From Lampris incognitus (taxonomy: Eukaryota > Chordata > Actinopteri > Lampriformes > Lampridae): a DNA stretch of 64,000 nucleotides. Below the pieces are notes generated by a model. The model had not been told where the DNA came from and searched no databases. It saw nothing but the letters and a program-made list of their open reading frames with translations. Below are positions 3,126-4,429 of this stretch, in pieces. Location: assembly GCF_029633865.1 (NCBI RefSeq), contig NC_079214.1, positions 22,130,873 through 22,194,872 on the forward strand, read 5' to 3'. Each line of letters begins with the position of its first letter. The stretch's first letter is position 1. Made by a program: the position numbers and the translations under genes.

Positions 3126-3606
3126 AAAGTCAACTTGTGAATTCTCTCTGCAACGCAGGCAAGTCAAACTTCACATTTGACATGCATTTTACTCATCCTT
3201 AATGTACCAATTCTTTTGTTAGGCATACACTACCGTTCAAAAGTTTGGGATCACCCAAACAATTTTGTGTTTTCCATGAAAAGTCACACTTATTCACCAC
3301 CATATGTTGTGAAATGAATAGAAAATAGAGTCAAGACATTGACAAGGTTAGAAATAATGATTTGTATTTGAAATAAGATTTTTTTTACATCAAACTTTGC
3401 TTTCGTCAAAGAATCCTCCATTTGCAGCAATTACAGCATTGCAGACCTTTGGCATTCTAGCTGTTAATTTGTTGAGGTAATCTGGAGAAATTGCACCCCA
3501 CGCTTCCAGAAGCAGCTCCCACAAGTTGGATTGGTTGGATGGGCACTTCTTTGAGCAGATTGAGTTTCTGGAGCATCACATTTGTGGGGTCAATTAAACG
3601 CTCAAA

Positions 3607-3894
3607 ATGGCCAGAAAAAGAGAACTTTCATCTGAAACTCGACAGTCTATTCTTGTTCTTAGAAATGAAGGCTATTCCATGCGAGAAATTGCTAAGAAAT
3701 TGAAGATTTCCTACACCGGTGTGTACTACTCCCTTCAGAGGACAGCACAAACAGGCTCTAACCAGAGTAGAAAAAGAAGTGGGAGGCCGCGTTGCACAAC
3801 TGAGCAAGAAGATAAGTACATTAGAGTCTCTAGTTTGAGAAACAGACGCCTCACAGGTCCCCAACTGGCATCTTCATTAAATAGTACCTGTTAG
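3607..3894 (+). pseudogene. Truncated Tc1 transposase N-terminus (left arm plus spacer)
   Basis: An open frame of 95 residues starts [13 protein letters not shown] and contains the first paired-like helix-turn-helix ([19 protein letters not shown]) and a GRPR AT-hook-like motif. It stops soon after the spacer, before any of the DDE catalytic region, so it is only the DNA-binding part. It might bind the element ends but cannot catalyse transposition. Confidence 0.85.
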
Positions 3895-4045
3895 AACCTG
3901 TTTGTGCTGTCCTCTGAAGGGAGTAGTACACACCGGTGTAGGAAATCTTCAATTTCTTAGCAATTTCTCGCATGGAATAGCCTTCATTTCTAAGAACAAG
4001 AATAGACTGTCGAGTTTCAGATGAAAGTTCTCTTTTTCTGGCCAT
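3851..4045 (-). pseudogene. Truncated Tc1 transposase N-terminus (right arm)
   Basis: The mirror copy of the first 53 transposase residues on the minus strand, created by the inverted duplication. It runs into the spacer in another frame and stops after 64 residues. Not a functional gene. Confidence 0.8.
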
Positions 4046-4429
4046 TTTGAGCGTTTAATTGACCCCACAAATGTGATGCTCCAGAAACTCAATCTGCTCA
4101 AAGAAGTGCCCATCCAACCAATCCAACTTGTGGGTGCTGCTTCTGGAAGCGTGGGGTGCAATTTCTCCAGATTACCTCAACAAATTAACAGCTAGAATGC
4201 CAAAGGTCTGCAATGCTGTAATTGCTGCAAATGGAGGATTCTTTGACGAAAGCAAAGTTTGATGTAAAAAAAATCTTATTTCAAATACAAATCATTATTT
4301 CTAACCTTGTCAATGTCTTGACTCTATTTTCAATTCATTTCACAACATATGGTGGTGAATAAGTGTGACTTTTCATGGAAAACACAAAATTGTTTGGGTG
4401 ATCCCAAACTTTTGAACGGTAGTGTACAT

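Follow-up and report, generated by a model that had tools for sequence, protein, structure and literature searches.

A mobile palindromic transposon family related to a Tc1-like element in the genome of Lampris incognitus

The window, a stretch of 64,000 nucleotides of the Lampris incognitus genome (assembly GCF_029633865.1, contig NC_079214.1, positions 22,130,873 to 22,194,872 of the forward strand), contains two copies, A and B, of an almost perfectly palindromic element, situated 24.5 kb apart (Table 1). Each is 1197 bp long, has 535-bp arms that pair at 532 of 535 positions around a 127-bp spacer, and has TA on both sides. The original prediction was thus exact in its coordinates, lengths, arms and spacer, as well as in describing intact ends and TA duplications. 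The spacer is oppositely oriented in the two copies, and copy A differs from the reverse complement of copy B at 6 of 1197 positions, with identical spacers. All six differences are located in the right arm, but the 29 copies aligned below have 38 differences in the left arm and 50 in the right, and the asymmetry was dropped as a chance effect. The 400-bp flanks of copies A and B share chance matches only (best E 0.46).

Table 1. Coordinates of the features within the window
Feature	Position	Strand	Description
Palindromic element, copy A	3228..4424	+	1197 bp; spacer on + strand
TA target-site duplication, left of copy A	3226..3227	.	
TA target-site duplication, right of copy A	4425..4426	.	
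Copy A left arm, outer part	3228..3551	-	3'-terminal 324 bp of the parent (1618 bp), reversed; BLAST 99.7%
Copy A left arm, inner part	3549..3762	+	parent 355-568 (transposase gene start); overlaps outer part by CTT at J1
Copy A spacer	3763..3889	+	127 bp; parent 569-694 except last base; collinear with left arm
Chimeric junction J2	3875..3906	+	parent 694 joined to reversed 568; used as search pattern
Copy A right arm	3890..4424	-	inverted left arm, 532/535 identical; outer 4101-4424 = parent 3' end
95-aa ORF, copy A	3607..3894	+	first helix-turn-helix, GRPR, part of second helix-turn-helix
64-aa ORF, copy A, other arm	3851..4045	-	first helix-turn-helix only
Palindromic element, copy B	27732..28928	-	spacer 28267-28393 on - strand; TA at 27730-27731 and 28929-28930
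95-aa ORF, copy B	28262..28549	-	
64-aa ORF, copy B	28111..28305	+	
Second Tc1-like transposon, adjoining copy B	29010-30239	+	344-codon stop-free stretch; D-E spacing 36 (DD36E type by spacing)
sin3a-like gene pieces	20266-37168	-	PAH repeat 36.8-37.2 kb; Sin3a_C 20.3-21.6 kb
piggyBac-type transposase (DDE_Tnp_1_7)	23336-24464	+	two pieces
hAT-type transposase remnant	33271-33771	-	weak match below Pfam cut-off
hAT-type transposase remnant	48681-49058	+	weak match below Pfam cut-off
RNase H remnant of reverse transcriptase	47976-48308	-	
Tc1-type transposase fragment	45302-45775	+	
Rfam tRNA match	11564-11642	+	uncalled by ARAGORN; perhaps SINE head

Copy B has exons of a sin3a-like gene, encoded on the minus strand, on either side of it and is presumably located in an intron. 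Open reading frames at 25.3, 35.1 and 41.5 kb resemble further sin3a-like exons by eye and have no Pfam family match, and several transposon remnants lie between the sin3a-like pieces. The DD36E-type element beside copy B is bounded by inverted ends at about 29.0 and 30.2 kb.

The parent of these elements is a 1618-bp transposon, four copies of which were read whole; all four have this length and TA on both sides, and differ from one another at 6-10 positions per pair. One copy, encountered in fetched flanking sequence (contig C5, 22244657-22246274), has a 27-bp terminal repeat, and 38 residues separate the second D from the E, as determined in one copy. The transposase frame is open over 347 aa in two of the four copies and over 361 aa in a third, and has a stop at codon 6 in the other. 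Pfam identifies Tc1-type helix-turn-helix (HTH) and DDE domains, and Sleeping Beauty transposase is the sole solved relative at an E threshold of 0.001 (E 9.1e-54). Neither parent end has a significant internal copy of the terminal repeat of the kind present in Sleeping Beauty (p 0.09-0.46, five comparisons). Published DD38E/Intruder elements have a spacing of 38, lengths of 1.5-1.7 kb, a single 341-379-aa ORF, TA sites, and terminal repeats either below 100 bp or of 100-272 bp, with recent invasions in many fishes (PMC7731502). The parent's spacing, length, 347-aa and 361-aa frames, TA sites and terminal repeats all fall within this description, and by these sequence features it is a Tc1-like transposon with DD38E ('Intruder') spacing.

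In parent coordinates the palindromic element, or hairpin, consists in order of 1618-1295 (reversed), 355-694, 568-355 (reversed) and 1295-1618. Positions 1-324 of each arm correspond to the reversed last 324 bp of the parent (99.7% in copy A) and positions 322-535 to parent 355-568. Each arm is therefore a 3' end fused to the start of the transposase gene, which gives the hairpin a 3' end on both sides; the earlier description of the arm as the first 535 bp of a Tc1 element is incorrect. Junction J1, inside each arm, has a 3-bp overlap (CTT), and J2 has a microhomology of at most 1 bp. On its left the spacer continues the transposase gene collinearly, and the new junction is at its right side alone.

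The same chimeric junction is present at thousands of sites. Searching the 1.48-Gb genome with J2 and allowing up to three mismatches gives 2874 + 2903 = 5777 matches, and the zero matches to the reversed control exclude chance. J1 has 5726 + 5713 = 11439 matches (control 0), or 1.98 per J2. The undivided transposase sequence at the place of J2 gives 1544 + 1556 = 3100 (control 0), including the intermediates described below. The hairpin form thus appears to outnumber the parent, although these numbers count junctions rather than whole elements, leave out copies with more than three mismatches, and may miss others, there being two runs of N in the 264-kb neighbourhood. If all J2 matches are full length, the family occupies by arithmetic ~6.9 Mb, or 0.47% of the genome. 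Among viral contigs there are no matches to the exact J1 pattern, and of two pattern matches to the parent transposase none was confirmed.

The 30 best-matching J2 loci were fetched, a sample biased to conserved copies, in which 29 loci lie within the first 12.1 Mb of contig C1; 28 of the 30 are full length. Exact TA is present on both sides of 26 of these 28, the remaining two being off by single bases, and 21 are exactly 1197 bp long. Intact hairpins are expected to have J1 sites 550 bp apart, and the 100 zero-mismatch J1 sites listed for C1 include 44 pairs separated by 539-550 bp (42 of them by exactly 550), with 12 sites solitary. In the two incomplete loci the left arm either lacks 332-515 with its outer part retained (L032) or is gone up to 515 (L050); both breaks are at 516, near the hairpin base, and breakage at the hairpin tip is possible. 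In one locus (L031, reverse complement, 854-3032) a hairpin copy lies 14 bp from a parent copy.

The 28 full copies, among which L021 is window copy A, were aligned together with window copy B (L032 and L050 left out). Relative to their majority sequence these 29 copies have 99 differences, or 0.29% per copy, with 38 in the left arm, 11 in the spacer and 50 in the right arm, with 69 variants found in single copies and 7 shared. The mean pairwise distance is 0.54%, compared to 8 of 1618 positions (0.49%) among the four parent copies. The hairpin expansion therefore looks star-like and recent, and parent and hairpin look equally young, in samples of best pattern matches that come nearly all from the start of C1 and are biased toward young and intact elements. 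Some variants occur in both arms of one element, at position 279 in L024 and position 357 in L030, each absent from the rest of the 29, and at positions 137 and 180 in L034, where five and four other copies, respectively, also have them. Such sharing shows that one arm can be copied from the other after the hairpin was born. Position 39 has the arm pair T/C in 17 copies, T/T in 8 and C/C in 4, with no C/T. One copy (L022) has five spacer differences within element positions 592-646, compared to none or one in the other 28.

The predicted elements intermediate between parent and hairpin are also present. In the zero-mismatch listings, the first 16.4 Mb of C1 contain 33 undivided transposase sites, two of which have J1 340-341 bp away. 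One of these (L054) was read and is a 1586-bp element flanked by TA, with an open 347-aa frame and the 324-bp 3' end on both sides, the two ends being ~99% alike; the second is known by its coordinates alone. The order of parent, element with two 3' ends, and hairpin is supported because copies of each exist. The rarity of the intermediates (2/33) argues against two 3' ends as the sole explanation of hairpin abundance, and the two 3' ends and shorter length are candidate causes of its exceeding the parent.

The reading we favor, and consider likely, is that these elements are a non-autonomous, high-copy fold-back family, that a young Tc1-like transposon with DD38E (Intruder) spacing gave rise to it in two steps, and that the parent transposase spread it in cut-and-paste fashion. 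In the first step the parent 5' end would have been swapped by template switching for the inverted last 324 bp, joined at parent position 355 through the 3-bp microhomology, to give an element of 1.59 kb that has a 3' end on either side and retains the complete transposase frame. In the second, a nascent strand on this intermediate would have halted at parent 694, folded back, and primed its own synthesis near 568, most likely as an excision gap was being repaired; copying of its own arm to the end by the snap-back strand would yield 535-bp arms around a 127-bp loop. Because both ends and the TA sites are intact, the hairpin could then be mobilised in trans by the parent transposase, and the identical ends and similar ages suggest that the parent is the supplier.

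A local accident or segmental duplication, with copies A and B belonging to one duplicated block, might be suspected from their separation by only 24.5 kb in one window, but it has a negligible chance of being correct, as the flanks of A and B are unrelated and the J2 search found the junction not at two loci within one block but at 5777 places genome-wide. Moreover, just one pair among the 28 full copies (L038 and L049) shares both 300-bp flanks. These data confirm the earlier proposal of a mobile non-autonomous family that has moved in its rearranged form, and exclude segmental duplication. The spacer is reversed between L038 and L049, which occupy the same site of similar flanks and may reflect either separate insertion of both copies into a repeat or inversion through recombination between the arms; L022/L033 and L026/L034 each have one flank stretch in common that looks like simple repeats. 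As to how the hairpin formed, the microhomologies at J1 (3 bp) and J2 (at most 1 bp) are short and also fit end joining or deletion within a head-to-head dimer of intermediates. An origin by either route, without snap-back synthesis and with the same later behaviour, is a possibility that we take seriously while thinking it rather unlikely. For a similar mariner with two 3' ends, deletion between neighbouring copies is the origin that the authors prefer (PMC4678618), and neighbours do occur here, as in L031. Dimer deletion nonetheless requires two adjacent inverted intermediates, which are rare (2/33), whereas a single snap-back event would yield both identical arms at once.

Returning to the two-step family, the hairpin could influence its parent either through protein or through RNA. 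Its longest transposase ORF is 95 aa and matches HTH_38 (E 2.1e-07), and the arm ORFs have a start codon and first helix-turn-helix, as noted in the original prediction, which also suggested that a truncated DNA-binding protein encoded by the arms could compete with transposase. Consistent with this, the 95-aa ORF is open in 24 of the 29 copies and the 64-aa ORF in 27. The second HTH, however, spans residues 71-141 in the parent and is cut by the 95-aa ORF at residue 95. Changes in the 95-codon ORF comprise 13 nonsynonymous, 3 synonymous and 4 stop, and in the 64-codon ORF 10, 3 and 2, against expected fractions near 0.67, 0.29 and 0.04; among the 29 copies there is no sign of purifying selection on either ORF, the changes being few and the power low. 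A competing protein is thus conceivable but unsupported, and we regard it as very improbable.

A long double-stranded RNA from the hairpin is a sound structural prediction, with the modelled transcript forming one nearly perfect stem of -1020.7 kcal/mol. Vertebrate responses to long double-stranded RNA may not give siRNA. By analogy with Mu killer of maize, a transcript entering from either side might yield a long hairpin RNA that acts against the transposase mRNA through small-RNA silencing and so shuts down the parent, an effect that we consider doubtful. The palindrome would fold in either orientation, the transposase coding sequence is represented in the arms by its start as well as its end, copy B offers an example of a site between sin3a-like exons at which intronic transcription could occur, and the Mu killer locus is an inverted duplication with the same proposed action (PMC3440606). 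On the other hand, the four parent copies are as young as the hairpins and thus give no sign of an early shutdown. In a bolder version, to which we attach a still lower probability, the hairpin would be a transposing silencer that rides on the parent transposase, every transcribed copy, whichever way it is oriented, making long double-stranded RNA against the transposase mRNA, limiting its own supply and shaping the burst of the parent. It would then be a self-spreading vertebrate counterpart of Mu killer.

As with other non-autonomous Tc1/mariner derivatives, the hairpin has the ends and target site of its parent and no complete transposase. MITEs are commonly under about 600-800 bp, and the hairpin (1197 bp) is not short in this sense, but has their high copy number and uniform length (5777 junctions; 21 of 28 copies). 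Foldback (FB) elements have long inverted ends that consist of short direct repeats, and no direct-repeat family of at least 12 bp is present within an arm, which distinguishes the hairpin from this class. Tc6 of C. elegans is likewise a palindromic non-autonomous repeat related to Tc1. The coexistence of parent, intermediate and hairpin in one genome, ~99% alike, makes the birth of a fold-back family readable step by step, and near-perfect 535-bp arms at thousands of sites would test the tolerance of a vertebrate for long palindromes and for hairpin RNA.

The words 'MITE', 'non-autonomous' and 'palindrom' each occur zero times in the main text of the DD38E/Intruder paper, and a palindromic form is thus absent from it under these terms (PMC7731502). 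No palindromic Intruder derivative was found in the titles and abstract openings of open-licence papers, among the matches listed; the closest there are Rpmar49 and Rpmar17, Rhodnius mariners whose 5' part is replaced by an inverted 3' part, and which form non-autonomous lineages with long terminal repeats (PMC4678618). Rpmar49 has 13 copies and has spread by transposition, and the breakpoints of Rpmar17 vary between copies. The available part of this report describes no second fold-back step, so the middle of the Rpmar elements would be non-palindromic, in contrast to the hairpin (PMC4678618). Bari1 of D. rhopaloa is Tc1-like and putatively autonomous with identical long ends, and resembles the 1586-bp intermediate, with no hairpin derivative described in the available text (PMC4877112). 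Pseudo-Mos1 has two 3' ends, as here, but is an artificial laboratory construct, a mariner rather than a Tc1 element; its two ends differ inside the terminal repeat, while in the Lampris elements the 27-bp repeats match and the ends differ in their subterminal parts (PMC3419177). The Lampris family provides a natural experiment on the question, posed there, of how an invading mariner with two 3' ends would behave in a genome, as such a form exists here both with and without its transposase. Mu killer of maize, in which part of a transposase gene is duplicated in inverted orientation along with copies of a terminal repeat region, is a single locus known for silencing, whereas the hairpin described here is a mobile family (PMC3440606).
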